This document shows, in pieces, positions 19,414 through 54,358 of a stretch of DNA of 64,000 nucleotides. Within the stretch, counting starts at the first letter, position 1; every line of letters begins with the position of its first letter. The position numbers were made by a program, and so were the translations under genes. Origin of the DNA: a virus; IMG/VR virus record IMGVR_UViG_3300009430_000004, positions 1-64,000 of that record; one strand, written 5' to 3'. The notes under the pieces were generated by a model. The model did not search any database. It was given only the letters and a program-made list of their open reading frames with translations, and was not told the origin of the DNA.

Positions 19414-20130
19414 CTATATAATAAGTTTCTTGCATTTGCAAGTACCGTCTTTAAAACTCTCACAAGGTATAACGATACCATTTGACATTACAACAATCTT
19501 CTCAACACCAGCGGTACACTCATGTTGGAAAGGTAAACCAAATATTACATTGTCATATGATTTCAATTTCTTGTGTAGAGCAATCAATTGTTTATCAGTT
19601 GGTACAAGGTCTGTATGTTCCAAACATCTTCCTTGTTCAACTAACTTAAGAATCTTTATCTTTGGTAATTCCAGTACAGATGACAGATATGCCACCAAGT
19701 CTGGTATTTCAGCTATATTAGCTGTTGTTGCAACTATATGGATTGTTGGATCAATACAAATGCTTGTATATCTCCCCAATAAGTGCATAGGATAATATTT
19801 TGTTTGAGTAATATAGTGGTTAGCGGTATTGTCAAGACTATATATGCTAATACAAATTTCATCAATCTTTTGAAATCCTGTATAAAATTGTGTTGTATAT
19901 AACCTAACCTTAGCCCCATAACTTTTTATAATCTTAATGATATCATCTAAATCTTCTCTTAGGCAAGGTTCTCCCCCACTTATATTAACCCATTTAGGTT
20001 TATATGTTTCCATTATAAAAATGATTGTATCCATATCTAAATTGTGCTCTTCACCTTCATTTGCCCTAGTAGAACAATGAAGACATTTACGAACACATTG
20101 GTTAGTTAACTCTAGAACTACTTCTTCCAT
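19414..20130 (-). CDS. Radical SAM enzyme with SPASM-like C terminus
   Basis: Radical S-adenosylmethionine enzyme, 238 residues. Seen: CVRKCLHC (C12, C16, C19), the CxxxCxxC 4Fe-4S motif; NISGGEPCLR near 50 (GGE motif for SAM binding); and a C-terminal half with a cysteine, 12 residues, glycine and GIVIPC, i.e. a CX(9-15)GX4C pattern as in SPASM/twitch auxiliary-cluster domains, then CKCKK at the end. SPASM-type enzymes usually modify peptides or proteins. The CX3CX2C spacing and extra C-terminal cysteines argue against a standard QueE. Substrate unknown. Ribosome site GGGGAAGATGGG. Confidence 0.85.
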   Translation of the reverse strand: MEEVVLELTNQCVRKCLHCSTRANEGEEHNLDMDTIIFIMETYKPKWVNISGGEPCLREDLDDIIKIIKSYGAKVRLYTTQFYTGFQKIDEICISIYSLDNTANHYITQTKYYPMHLLGRYTSICIDPTIHIVATTANIAEIPDLVAYLSSVLELPKIKILKLVEQGRCLEHTDLVPTDKQLIALHKKLKSYDNVIFGLPFQHECTAGVEKIVVMSNGIVIPCESFKDGTCKCKKLII

Positions 20131-20245: not shown

Positions 20246-20536
20246 CTACAATTTTGTGTCACCATCACCCTTATTATCAACTTGTTCTTCTTGTATATTT
20301 TCATCAGTCTCAACAATAATATCATGACATAATTCTACACTTTCGTCACAAATATATACTCCTGGACCAGCTATTAACCTTTTAATAGCAGATTGACTCT
20401 TACCGCAAAAAGAGCAGTGAAGTTCTTTGTTCTTAAAAGGCATAGTCAATTTATCATATTTCTTCGCTTTCTCCATAATAAGATATAAAGCATCTACATT
20501 TGGATCTTTTTGTTGAGTATCTTTACCCCAAAGCAT
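20246..20536 (-). CDS. Stand-alone ClpX-type zinc-binding domain protein
   Basis: 96 residues. Residues 40-75 read like the N-terminal zinc domain of bacterial Clp[21 protein letters not shown] then [14 protein letters not shown]. In ClpX this domain dimerises and binds adaptors and substrates. Here it lacks the AAA+ module. Three zinc ligands align (C41, C44, C63) but the fourth position is Ser66 (codon AGT, one base from TGT); C70 and H71 nearby might substitute. N terminus has a helical segment ([15 protein letters not shown]) and the C terminus an acidic tail. A role as a ClpXP adaptor decoy or inhibitor is inference. Ribosome site AAGGAAGGG. Confidence 0.88.
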
Positions 20537-20569: not shown

Positions 20570-20601
20570 AATAATGGACTGGCGTTAACCAGTCCATTAT
20601 T
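20570..20601 (-). terminator. Hairpin terminator
   Basis: 13-bp perfect stem (20570-20582 with 20589-20601) directly after the Tad1-like gene, followed on the minus strand by TTATTTTATG. Confidence 0.82.
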
Positions 20602-20602
20602 A

Positions 20603-20966
20603 TTATACAGTATGTGTACCTTCTACACCTCTAGCTTCTCTTTTCTGAGTTCTGCTTCTAAGAGCAGTAAGAGCAGCTACAATGTGGTCTAGTGCTTCTT
20701 GATTTTCAGCACATTTGTAAGGGCTGTTTTGGAACCCTTGTAATCTTGTGTAGACCATAACAAGTAAGTCCTCATTGGAAACACCGTTAACACCGCATTC
20801 CTTAATAGGTCCTTCTTGGAAATCTACCTTTGTAACAACTTCTCCTGTTTCCACCATTCTTTACTTCGAAGTGGTGTGGAGCGTTGAATTTAAAATCAGC
20901 TTCATATTCAACCTTTGTATACTTTTGTGTAAACAAAGGATCGTTTATAGTTACTCTGTTTTCCAT
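20603..20966 (-). CDS. Tad1/Acb2-family anti-defence sponge, interrupted by a +1 frameshift
   Basis: Read with one base skipped at 20858, the two frames give about 120 residues: frame 1 (start ATG 20966, site GAGGTGATT) encodes MENRVTINDPLF to FNAPHHFEVK, frame 2 (20857-20603) continues VDFQEGPIKECGVNG, GFQNSPYKCAENQEAL and RTQKREARGVEGTH. This is the pattern of Tad1-type proteins that sequester the Thoeris signal gcADPR; related Acb2 proteins bind CBASS cyclic nucleotides. A Phe, Asn, Arg, Arg series spaced +10, +27 and +31 matches the ligand residues I recall for the Clostridioides Tad1. As given, the frame is broken, so either the gene is damaged, the base is a sequence error, or translation restarts at ATG 20857. 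Confidence 0.75.
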
Positions 20967-21033
20967 GTGAATCACCTCATAAATATTATTTAATATTAAG
21001 TTTATTTAGTGATTTTCTATATGGAAGATTTTG

Positions 21034-21499: not shown

Positions 21500-21676
21500 T
21501 TAAATTATCCTTTTAACTTCTTGTTTATCTTCTTTAGTTTCTTTCTTAGTCTCCTTGTGTATGACAATTTTGACTAATGTGAATTGAGATAAACATCCTG
21601 CCGCAACAGCTAATAGCATTAAAGCTCCTACAAATCTCCAGAATGAACCTAATACATACTGTAATACTTCTAACAT
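21500..21676 (-). CDS. Small single-span membrane protein
   Basis: 58 residues: MLEVLQYVLGSFWRFVGALM, hydrophobic LLAVAAGCLS and then a highly charged Lys/Glu tail (KETKKETKEDK). One transmembrane helix with a cytoplasmic-looking basic tail. ATG preceded by GGGGGTGAAAAAGT. Overlaps the end of the PP-loop gene by seven bases, so translation is probably coupled. Function unknown. Confidence 0.65.
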   Translation of the reverse strand: MLEVLQYVLGSFWRFVGALMLLAVAAGCLSQFTLVKIVIHKETKKETKEDKQEVKRII

Positions 21677-22454
21677 ACTTTTTCACCCCCATCTACAATA
21701 CTATCTTCTTTTTTTGTCTCATCACTTAATATATTTTTAAATTTGTCATTTTTTCTTTTACGAAATTCATCAATCAATTGACCAAACTCATCTGCATCAT
21801 TTAGATTTACAGTCATTGAGCTAACGACAGCAGCCTTATATGTTTGACAAGGATGACAATTACCACATAATTGCCCAACTTCACCAGGCATTTCACAGAA
21901 CCATATATATTGAAATAGTTCGTGTTGCTTCAGTTCCCCAACAATCTTTTCTTTCTCCATGTAGTATAAGTCGAATTGAAGAGTAACTGTTTTGCCCAAC
22001 ATCTTACAGAAACTGTTAACCATTGTTTTGAAATTATCATCTTGATACCAGAAGTGGTCACCATTAATATAACCGAAATGCAGAACTGAATCGTCCTCAA
22101 GTAGTGGTAAAAACTGTAGAACCCACAAGCCTGGTTGAGGCAATCCATGAGTTCCATATTTAAGTAAATTATTAGAGTCTTGAATCTCTGACTTTAATAA
22201 AATTTTATCAAAAGCTAATCCCTTAGCGATAAATTCTTCTTCAATTTTAACCCTAGCCTTTGCTTCCGATATTCTCTTTTTAGTATCGAAGTAGAAAGGT
22301 TCAGATATTAATGCAATAGGCTTCTTATATTTGTCATCTTTAGCTTGTTTTAGTTCATTGCATAGCTTATATAGAAGAAGAGTGCTATCCCCTCCCCCGA
22401 CCACGCAACATAATGTTTTTTAGTTAAATCAACTGTTAAATCATAATCTTTCAT
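21670..22454 (-). CDS. PP-loop ATPase (QueC-like), frame broken inside the ATP loop
   Basis: Adenylating PP-loop enzyme resembling QueC (7-cyano-7-deazaguanine synthase). ATG 22454 opens a frame MKDYDLTVDLTKKHYVAWSG; adding one G in the run at 22394-22398 continues it as GGDSTLLLYK, giving the canonical SGGGDS loop and about 261 residues. Without it only the downstream part (GTG 22404) is open. The C-terminal region has LCGNCHPC, like the QueC zinc site, and FGYINGDHFWYQDD in the middle. Either a homopolymer sequencing error, a real knock-out, or slippage. The radical SAM gene nearby could be a pathway partner. Substrate may differ from the queuosine precursor. Confidence 0.72.
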
Positions 22455-34770: not shown

Positions 34771-34793
34771 TATATTATAGGAGGATGGGGAAA

Positions 34794-36500
34794 ATGAGCA
34801 ATACAATATTTACACCAAATTATGACTGGAATGTCATTGACGAGAAAAACTTCAAGGATAGAGTACACATGGTATTCAATCAAGTTGCTGGAGCACTTGT
34901 CAATACATTAGGACCATATGGGTCAACTACAATCATTGAAAAATATGGTGAAATGCATATCACTAAAGACGGATGGCAAGTATTAAAGAAGATCCACTTT
35001 GGTGACCCTGTAAACAATAATATCATGCACTTGCTTATTAATATAAGTGCACAGGTAGTTCTTAGAGTTGGTGATGGAAGTACATCTTCCATTATAGCAG
35101 CTAATACTATTCTCAATCGTTTAGAGAATAATCCAACATTGAAGAAGATGAGACCTAAAGAATTCTTAAAGGTTTTATCTGCGGCTGTTGAATTGATATC
35201 ACAAAGAATTCTGGACTTCTCTTCTAAAATCAATAAGGAGAATGACCCAGATTTCAATGAAATATATAAGTTAGCTATGATTTCTACAAATGGTGATGAT
35301 GATGTTTCAAAAGTTATTCAAACCATTTACAGAGAAACAGTTAACCCAAGTATTGAATTTGTTCAATCAAAGACTAACAAGACCACATATGAAATCATAG
35401 AAGGCTATAAATTAGCTAATATGACTTACATTGATGGTATATTTGCTAATGGTGATGACGGTACTTGTTCTATTACAAAACCAATAATCATCATGTTTGA
35501 CCATAAGATTGACAAAGAAACACACTTTGATAAGATACTTACAAATGCTATACAAGTGGCTTTAGCCCAAGAAAGAAGAATAGTTATAGTCGCTCCAAAC
35601 TATGATAAGTATTTGCTTAACATGCTCGGTACTGCTATACCTATGGAATATAAAGCTAGAGGTACAAGCACTTCTGTGTATGCTAGAGTATCACTAATCA
35701 ACAATATGTCACATGAGTTATATAATGATTTCGCTACTATGACTGGCGGAATGATTATCAGAGAAACTCATATTGACCAGCTTGTAGATGGTACATTGAA
35801 AGTAGATGAATTCCTCGGTGAAGTTGACAACATCGTCATCGGAGATACATCAACTCTAATCAAAGGATTCTACAAGAGAAATGAGGACATGTACAATGTA
35901 TGTGTTAACGATGCTACAGCTAAGTACAAGAAAGTTGAAGCTACACATAGAGAGCTTGGAATAGTAAACTCTGAGTTATATGAGCTAAAACAAAGACTGG
36001 CTAAGCTTAGAGGTAAAATGGGAGTTATCTATGTAGGTGGAAACTCCTCACTTGAAAAAGTAAGTAACTATGACCTTGTAGAAGATGCTGTTAAAGCATG
36101 TGAATCAGCTTACAACTATGGGTACAATATAGGTGGTAACTTGATTCTTCCGATAGCTATAAGGCATATTAAAGAGAATACAGAAAATCTTTCAGACAAC
36201 ACAAAACTTATACTTGACTTATTAAATGATGCTTTCAGGGATGTATTTGTTAAGGTGCTTGGTAACAAGTTCACTGAGGAAAGAGATACAGGCTCTGATA
36301 AGTTATATGACATAGTAGATAAGTGTGTTGATTCTTGGAAGTGTTATGATTTAATCACTGATGAATACAGTGATAATGTAATTAATTCGTGCTTCACTGA
36401 TATTGAAATATTAAAGGCTGCAACATCAATAGTTTCACTGTTGATATCAAGTAACCAATATGTATCAATTATGGTGAGCAACTCTGAAGTACAACAATAA
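34794..36500 (+). CDS. GroEL/chaperonin-like protein
   Basis: Chaperonin-fold ATPase, 568 residues. Seen in GroEL order: VNTLGPYGSTTIIEK near 36, ITKDGWQVLKKI near 56, GDGSTSSIIAA at 93-103 (GDGTTT ATP motif), and near 420 GVIYVGGNSSLEK, DLVEDAVKACESAYNYGYNIGGN, matching the GroEL intermediate/equatorial return. No GGM tail and no recognisable GroES gene in this window. Phage-encoded chaperonins (e.g. EL, AR9) fold virion proteins. Start ATG 34794 follows AGGAGG by 8; an ATG nine bases earlier overlaps it. Confidence 0.92.
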   Translation: MSNTIFTPNYDWNVIDEKNFKDRVHMVFNQVAGALVNTLGPYGSTTIIEKYGEMHITKDGWQVLKKIHFGDPVNNNIMHLLINISAQVVLRVGDGSTSSIIAANTILNRLENNPTLKKMRPKEFLKVLSAAVELISQRILDFSSKINKENDPDFNEIYKLAMISTNGDDDVSKVIQTIYRETVNPSIEFVQSKTNKTTYEIIEGYKLANMTYIDGIFANGDDGTCSITKPIIIMFDHKIDKETHFDKILTNAIQVALAQERRIVIVAPNYDKYLLNMLGTAIPMEYKARGTSTSVYARVSLINNMSHELYNDFATMTGGMIIRETHIDQLVDGTLKVDEFLGEVDNIVIGDTSTLIKGFYKRNEDMYNVCVNDATAKYKKVEATHRELGIVNSELYELKQRLAKLRGKMGVIYVGGNSSLEKVSNYDLVEDAVKACESAYNYGYNIGGNLILPIAIRHIKENTENLSDNTKLILDLLNDAFRDVFVKVLGNKFTEERDTGSDKLYDIVDKCVDSWKCYDLITDEYSDNVINSCFTDIEILKAATSIVSLLISSNQYVSIMVSNSEVQQ

Positions 36501-52381: not shown

Positions 52382-54358
52382 ATGTTTAAAAAAATGTATA
52401 AGCTCAAAATACGAGCAAAATTAGTATTAACAACTTTGATAATTTTAACAGTAGCATTAGTATCAGTTTCATCGGTGAGTTACTTTGTATTTAAGGATAG
52501 GTTGCAAGATAAAATAATGCAATCTCTTGGTACAATCACTGTAGATAGAGCCGAATTTGTGAAGAGTTGGCTAAGTAAATTGGAATATATAAGTGTGGTC
52601 AATTTTGTGACAAATAACGATAACGATAGTGTTGATATTGCGGATTTACACCTGAGTAAAATAGATTCCACGATATTAACATCCTTTATATTCTTTAATG
52701 ATGGTAATTTAATTGATGCAAATGGGTGGAAACCTGACCCTGGTACTGATTTAAAACAAATGAATTGGTATAAAGTTGGTATATCGTCCAATAAACCAAC
52801 TTATTTATTAGATAGGGATTTAAAAACAAATAATGTTTCAGTATTCTGTGTAAGGCAGTTTACCGATAAAAACGGAAATGTAAAAGGGGTAATTGCTCAG
52901 ATATATGATTCTAATGTATTTAACACTATGGTCGCTTCATTAAGAGCCGAAGGTGACGGATATGGATACATAGTGGGAAAAGGACATATATTAGCACATC
53001 CTGATAAATCACTTGTTGGTAAAACAGTTGAGGATGCTGGCGTTGCAATAGCTAATGAATTAGTTGCTAATTTAGGTACTCCTATTCACTATGAATTCAG
53101 AAATGTTAAGAAATATGGTGTTGCTGTAAAAATACCTGATATGCAGGATGCGTATCTTATAATGGCTGTACCAGATGAAACTGTTTTAAAACCATTAGAT
53201 AACGTGGACCTATATATGATTGGAATATCATTATTATTTTTACTATTGGCATCAATAACATTTTCGATAATGTCAACTAGGATATCAAACCCTCTAGTTA
53301 AGAGTAGTGAATTGTTGGGGCATATAGCTTTGGGAGACTTTACTAGAGATACTGATTCTGCCGATTTAAATATTCCTGATGAAATAGGAGATATAAATAG
53401 GTCTGTTGATAAAGTTAAGAAATCGCTTATAGGAATTATAAAAGAACTTAAAAGTAGCAGTAATATATTATCTCATGATGCTCAGTCACTGAGTGCAACT
53501 GCTACACAGAGAACTTCTGGTTTACAACAAATAAGTGTTAGTTGTAACGAAATGGCTGCTGGTATACAAGTATTGGCTGATAATAATCAAGAGAGTGTTG
53601 CATCATTGACAGATCTCAGCTCTCTATTAGATAAGGCTAATGAAATATCTAGTGGCATGGTTGACAGGGTAGTTATTGCCCAGCAAAAAAGTAATATCGG
53701 GTTATCAGTAATGAAAGAATTGATGGATGACAATTTAGTAGTAAACGCTGCTGTTGGAAATATGAATACAACGGTTGCTGATATTTACGAAAAATCAAAT
53801 AAGATAAAAGATATACTGGAAATTATTAATAATATTTCTGGTCAAACAAACCTCTTGGCTTTGAATGCTTTAATAGAGGATGCTAAGATAAAAGAAAACA
53901 ATGGTTTCTCAGTTATTGCTAATGAGATAAAGAAACTTTCGGATCATACAAAATTAGAAAGTGCTAATATTTCATCAAAACTTAGTGAGATAACTGTTGG
54001 TATTGAGAAATTAGTTGAGTATTCATCTAAATTTGATAGTACTATGAAGGAGCAGACTGGTACAATAAACTTGTCTAATGAATCATTTAAGAATATTTCT
54101 GACTCAATTGATGAAGTTATTCAGTTAACAAATAAACTTAAAGATATTGTAATCAATATTGATGCAAATAAAGTAACCGTATTAAGTATGGTTGAAAATA
54201 ATGCTAGTTTAACAGAAGAGTTTTCTGCCAATATACAAGAAATAACAGCTTCTGTTGAACAGAATCTTGCTGGAAGCGAAGAAAATCTTAATACTATTAA
54301 AAAGCTTGATAAACTAAGTAATGGATTACTTGCTATTGTAGAAAAATTCAAAATATAA
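52382..54358 (+). CDS. Methyl-accepting chemotaxis protein (phage-encoded)
   Basis: Complete receptor architecture, 658 residues: short basic N terminus; transmembrane helix near 13-33; extracellular dCache-like sensor of about 240 residues (GYGYIVGKGHILAHP near 195); second transmembrane helix near 275-295 (IGISLLFLLLASITFSIM); HAMP region (RISNPLVKSSELL); and a cytoplasmic signalling domain whose hairpin reads NISGQTNLLALNALIEDAKI, then NNGFSVIANEIKKLS. Canonical receptors have IEAARAGE here; the phage has IEDAKIKE, so the CheA/CheW tip is largely but not fully kept. No CheA/CheW genes nearby. Probably acquired from a Gram-positive host. Site GGAGGGG. Confidence 0.93.
   Translation: MFKKMYKLKIRAKLVLTTLIILTVALVSVSSVSYFVFKDRLQDKIMQSLGTITVDRAEFVKSWLSKLEYISVVNFVTNNDNDSVDIADLHLSKIDSTILTSFIFFNDGNLIDANGWKPDPGTDLKQMNWYKVGISSNKPTYLLDRDLKTNNVSVFCVRQFTDKNGNVKGVIAQIYDSNVFNTMVASLRAEGDGYGYIVGKGHILAHPDKSLVGKTVEDAGVAIANELVANLGTPIHYEFRNVKKYGVAVKIPDMQDAYLIMAVPDETVLKPLDNVDLYMIGISLLFLLLASITFSIMSTRISNPLVKSSELLGHIALGDFTRDTDSADLNIPDEIGDINRSVDKVKKSLIGIIKELKSSSNILSHDAQSLSATATQRTSGLQQISVSCNEMAAGIQVLADNNQESVASLTDLSSLLDKANEISSGMVDRVVIAQQKSNIGLSVMKELMDDNLVVNAAVGNMNTTVADIYEKSNKIKDILEIINNISGQTNLLALNALIEDAKIKENNGFSVIANEIKKLSDHTKLESANISSKLSEITVGIEKLVEYSSKFDSTMKEQTGTINLSNESFKNISDSIDEVIQLTNKLKDIVINIDANKVTVLSMVENNASLTEEFSANIQEITASVEQNLAGSEENLNTIKKLDKLSNGLLAIVEKFKI

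Follow-up and report, generated by a model that had tools for sequence, protein, structure and literature searches.

A Tad1 family gene split by a one-base frameshift in a jumbo phage related to AR9 and PBS1

The 64,000-base stretch of viral DNA analysed here (the window; bases 1-64000 of the 218,088-base IMG/VR record IMGVR_UViG_3300009430_000004) carries a genuine gene of the Tad1 (Thoeris anti-defence 1) family that is broken in this phage lineage; the gene is of a known kind and its loss is an ordinary one. In our estimation, with a probability of about 0.82, this is a vertically inherited tad1 of an AR9/PBS1-related jumbo phage that was recently inactivated. The observations behind this reading are the homology of the gene product, the fold of the chain joined from both frames, the frameshift present in two assemblies, the intact syntenic orthologue and the quality of the start sites. 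From them we infer a loss of function, and the lack of any other lesion together with the intact invariant residues points to its being recent.

Inspection of the minus strand from 20966 to 20603 revealed that no single unbroken frame encodes the whole Tad1: in both assemblies there are two frames one base apart (Table 1), neither of which covers the full protein alone. The residues MENRV...HHFEVKN of the 5' frame are homologous to the Tad1 strands b1-b3 and are followed by about 18 out-of-frame codons. The 3' frame, which reads +1 relative to the 5' frame, encodes strand b4, helices a1-a2, the RGVEGTHTV tail and all invariant Tad1 residues. By homology, the break is placed at the 5' end of the stretch where both frames are open, within the b3-b4 loop, the most length-variable part across Tad1 homologues. 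The Shine-Dalgarno sequence of the native start is normal and strong, the median for 36 genes of the window being -10.2 kcal/mol, while no ribosome-binding site was found by the same scoring at the internal ATG (-1.0 kcal/mol).

Table 1. Features of the split tad1 locus, in positions of the window
Feature	Position	Strand	Details
tad1 5' frame	20802..20966	-	native start ATG 20966; stop 20802-20804
tad1 3' frame	20603..20857	-	84 aa; ATG 20857; stop 20603-20605
Double-open stretch	20805..20860 (about)	-	56 nt; both tad1 frames open together nowhere else
Shine-Dalgarno GAGGTGA for ATG 20966	20972..20978	-	-9.9 kcal/mol
Intrinsic-terminator-like hairpin	20570..20601	-	14-pair stem, T-rich tail; adjoins the tad1 stop

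The joined reading of both frames was used as a query for searches and fold modelling only. An earlier note on this DNA had proposed that skipping one base joins the two frames into a Tad1 of about 120 residues, and the searches bear this out: residues 5-118 of the 120 match the Tad1 of PDB 8kbb (E=3.2e-32), and the joined chain matches PHROG 2428 with E=6.3e-39. The 3' frame by itself is still recognised (8.5e-24 with 8kbb, 2.7e-32 with PHROG 2428), and the 5' frame alone has a weak match (0.041) to the N-terminal part of PHROG 2428; taken together, these matches exceed chance by far. The joined chain is 44% identical to Tad1 of phage SBSphiJ7 (E=9e-30) and 61% identical to that of phage f2b1, and in an alignment of 46 sequences it keeps 14 of the 14 invariant Tad1 columns. 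Thus, the frames 20966->20802 and 20857->20603 are pieces of one Tad1 gene, Tad1 by descent, and the gene is most likely an ordinary, broken member of a known family and not something new.

As for the profile PF24729 (Acb2/Tad1 hairpin), to which the earlier note had suggested aligning the joined protein, the window tad1 gave no match above the gathering score, and a search of NCBIfam profiles with it also gave no match. However, the intact Tad1 of a sister phage is likewise missed by PF24729, which makes the failure uninformative here and the profile insensitive for this branch; other intact homologues also score below the cut-off, while SBSphiJ7 Tad1 passes it with 34.2 bits. Both collections were therefore dropped as proof of family membership, their silence being a matter of insensitivity and not negative evidence. 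Some annotations among the matches may be mentioned here: the C-terminal part of a 230-aa phage protein (PHROG 22140, PDB 8y6v), named only gp184 in the solved structure, matches the 3' frame, and some other homologues carry a structural-protein annotation.

The AlphaFold2 model of the joined chain (pLDDT 89.4) consists of four strands followed by two helices, in agreement with the four-stranded antiparallel sheet and two long helices of the family. The best 20 Foldseek matches of this model in the PDB are all CmTad1 or CbTad1, with TM-scores of 0.88 to the former (the best of all) and 0.82 to the latter. Residues F78, N88, R105 and R109 of the joined chain align with F82, N92, R109 and R113 of CbTad1, which we take to be its ligand-pocket residues; the spacing (F, +10 N, +17 R, +4 R) is exact and the offset is four, just as the earlier note had anticipated. 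When the 84-aa fragment is modelled alone, it forms two helices and no sheet, with pLDDT falling to 79.6; strands b1-b3 of the Tad1 sheet are missing from it. The ligand pocket of Tad1 is built of the loops of one protomer and the helices of the other (review PMC12043709), and since both are needed, the fragment, judged by this architecture and by its own model, would probably make a poor sponge.

The intact homologues that the earlier note had advised to look for in related phages do exist. In the sister jumbo phage IMGVR_UViG_3300004463_000226 (234 kb), tad1 occupies the same place as in the window phage, between the genes of the RNAP beta' subunit and a helicase, and its product is intact and 116 aa long. 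This protein is 60% identical to the joined chain and 67.5% identical to its 3' part, with a genome median of 52.9%. Among the other relatives from viral contigs, 78 of 79 are open through the junction, as are 12 of the 12 full-span relatives from bacterial genomes (a thirteenth copy is cut by a contig end), and the matches from cultured phages that span the junction are one uninterrupted piece each. Troll and other cultured phages, whose genes look split in the annotation, were checked and proved intact. No relative was encountered in which just the downstream frame is kept as a gene, the case named in the earlier note as a refutation. As the gene is unbroken in the sister and in almost every other relative, the split is not a conserved device. 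The one exception among the viral contigs (L014:4750-5250) has one in-frame TAG in its N-terminal portion; it could be another broken copy or come from a phage in which TAG is read as an amino acid.

Relative to the sister, both halves of the window tad1 still differ among codon positions as expected of a protein under selection: identities at codon positions 1/2/3 are 0.65/0.82/0.47 for the 3' part and 0.67/0.86/0.38 for the 5' part. The dN/dS ratio against the sister was rejected as a measure, synonymous sites being saturated. No second lesion was seen in the gene, which, together with the codon pattern, indicates that either the loss is recent or the gene is somehow still used.

Tad1 acts as a sponge for gcADPR, the product of the Thoeris TIR proteins, so that the defence effector stays off; the studied homologues also bind CBASS cyclic nucleotides. 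A functional Tad1 is a hexamer. We suppose that the ancestor of the jumbo phage carried an intact Tad1, and that a one-base indel then arose in the variable b3-b4 loop. Ribosomes starting from the good ribosome-binding site would end after about 54 residues and yield a mostly useless b1-b3 stub, whereas the helical 3' part, with most of the ligand contacts, would be left without a proper start. The frameshift found in two assemblies and the wholeness of nearly all relatives lead to the conclusion that a known gene was most likely lost recently. An argument against inactivation is that the gene has kept every invariant column along with its terminator and its ribosome-binding site, as one would equally expect if it were still in use. 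In the earlier note the phage was credited with a functioning sponge, and this finds no support, given that the break recurs in a second assembly, that no ribosome-binding site precedes the internal ATG, that the fragment is devoid of b1-b3, and that close relatives are unbroken and need no shift. Among the three origins of the break listed there, damage to the gene has by far the strongest support, sequencing error is unlikely, and programmed translation has gained no positive evidence.

The frameshift is real in the phage population, judged from two assemblies that may share sampling history. The second one, IMGVR_UViG_3300025106_000001 (103,797 bases), represents the same population, differing from the window's record by 8 substitutions and 1 gap over 103.8 kb; its tad1 junction is identical, and there is one substitution in the 10,252 bases around. 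It also spans both ends of the window's record with a 31-base overlap, which means that the phage genome closes as a circle. A junction-tolerant DNA pattern search for a third contig of this population found none, returning only the known one. That the two records share an error of sequencing or assembly, the true tad1 being intact, might be argued from their origin in one collection, from the possible relatedness of the two samples and from the fact that the break is known from assembled contigs. Nevertheless, we regard it as quite unlikely: two contigs with different ends and the above differences agree at the junction, the junction sequence is not a homopolymer, and frameshifts are otherwise rare in the genome. 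Running 160 proteins of the sister against this genome brought out a single further gene that may be split, which shows that indels are not widespread in the assembly. This gene, for an NrnB-like DHH/DHHA1 phosphoesterase (about 106,895-107,822 of the window's record), lies in two overlapping frames and is one ORF in the sister; it is a possible second frameshift or a true gene split.

Two other explanations leave the break in place and rescue the protein. One of them, a lineage-specific +1 ribosomal frameshift, programmed or leaky, by which some full-length Tad1 is made, would agree with the otherwise pristine frames, with the ability of ribosomes to shift in the +1 direction and with the 56-nt overlap open in both frames. 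Yet the sister and almost all of the other relatives do without a shift, and the homology-defined junction has no recognised device such as a prfB-like stop codon with an upstream Shine-Dalgarno sequence; besides, since a sponge acts stoichiometrically, a shift of low yield would be ill suited to it, and on the whole we find this very improbable. Still harder to accept is a two-piece Tad1: either both the stub and the 84-aa fragment would be made and come together again, or the fragment would bind the ligand on its own. It is true that F78, N88, R105, R109 and both helices belong to the 3' fragment and that this fragment opens with an ATG; but the poor start-site score of this ATG, its position 53 bases before the upstream stop, which is poor for re-initiation, the occurrence of such a split in no relative examined, and the sheet missing from the fragment model all weigh against it. 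Taken more broadly, it is unlikely that the unchanged allele still yields Tad1 (by a lineage-specific +1 shift or in two pieces, the dosage being set at translation) or that it is a dormant sponge reactivated by mutation when hosts carry Thoeris.

As to the phage itself, its terminase and RNAP are nearest, albeit distantly (28-37%), to those of Bacillus phages BpSp, AR9 and PBS1 and of Staphylococcus phages, e.g., S6; none of these phages is among the Tad1 matches listed. Neither the 218-kb record nor the sister gave a profile match to Tad2 (PF11195), a possible replacement sponge. An attempt to deduce the host from the tad1 relatives was abandoned, since the hosts of these were too diverse (Paenibacillus, Lachnospiraceae, Oscillospiraceae, Betaproteobacteria). 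The window also encodes a methyl-accepting chemotaxis receptor with Cache and MCP signalling domains (52382-54358, plus strand), an unusual cargo for a phage, for which a short-pattern scan of bacterial genomes, made for host prediction, found no relative, and a Cpn60/GroEL-type chaperonin (34785-36500, plus strand). Just downstream of tad1 (20246-20536, minus strand), a stand-alone ClpX-type C4 zinc finger is carried by a small protein that has a relative elsewhere in the sister genome. Tad1 is flanked by genes of a Radical SAM protein and a weakly QueC-like protein (19414-20130 and 21670-22404, both on the minus strand), which are perhaps involved in base or tRNA modification.

The locus records how, in a lineage of jumbo phages related to AR9 and PBS1, an anti-defence sponge of long conservation was lost in nature; with the intact sister orthologue for comparison, it serves as a small natural experiment on the circumstances in which phages need Tad1. 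Such copies are overlooked by ORF-based and Pfam-based scans, PF24729 missing even the intact copy of this branch.

Compared with the known systems, the joined chain shares the b1-b4 and a1-a2 order and the F/N/R/R spacing with CmTad1 from Clostridioides (8kbb/8kbc/8kbd) and with CbTad1 (7uav/7uaw/8smd), from which the window copy differs in being split by a frameshift. Its helix a2 has Ala in place of the conserved Trp and Val-Ala in place of Glu-Glu; the sister Tad1, too, departs from the Trp and the first Glu. The Tad1 of Bacillus phage SBSphiJ7, a proven anti-Thoeris protein (PMC12043709), is intact, has a longer b3-b4 loop and resides in a Herelleviridae genome, unlike the window tad1, and the proteins of the sister and of phage f2b1, although 60-61% identical to the joined chain, are both intact as well. 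An impaired sponge gene is also known from Pseudomonas phage PaMx41, whose natural acb2 (gp24) is short and weaker, anti-CBASS activity being regained in escape mutants with a longer gp24 (PMC12043709). The Acb2 fold and the type of lesion are different from those described here; however, the shortened acb2 indicates that a phage keeping a broken sponge gene is not unheard of.
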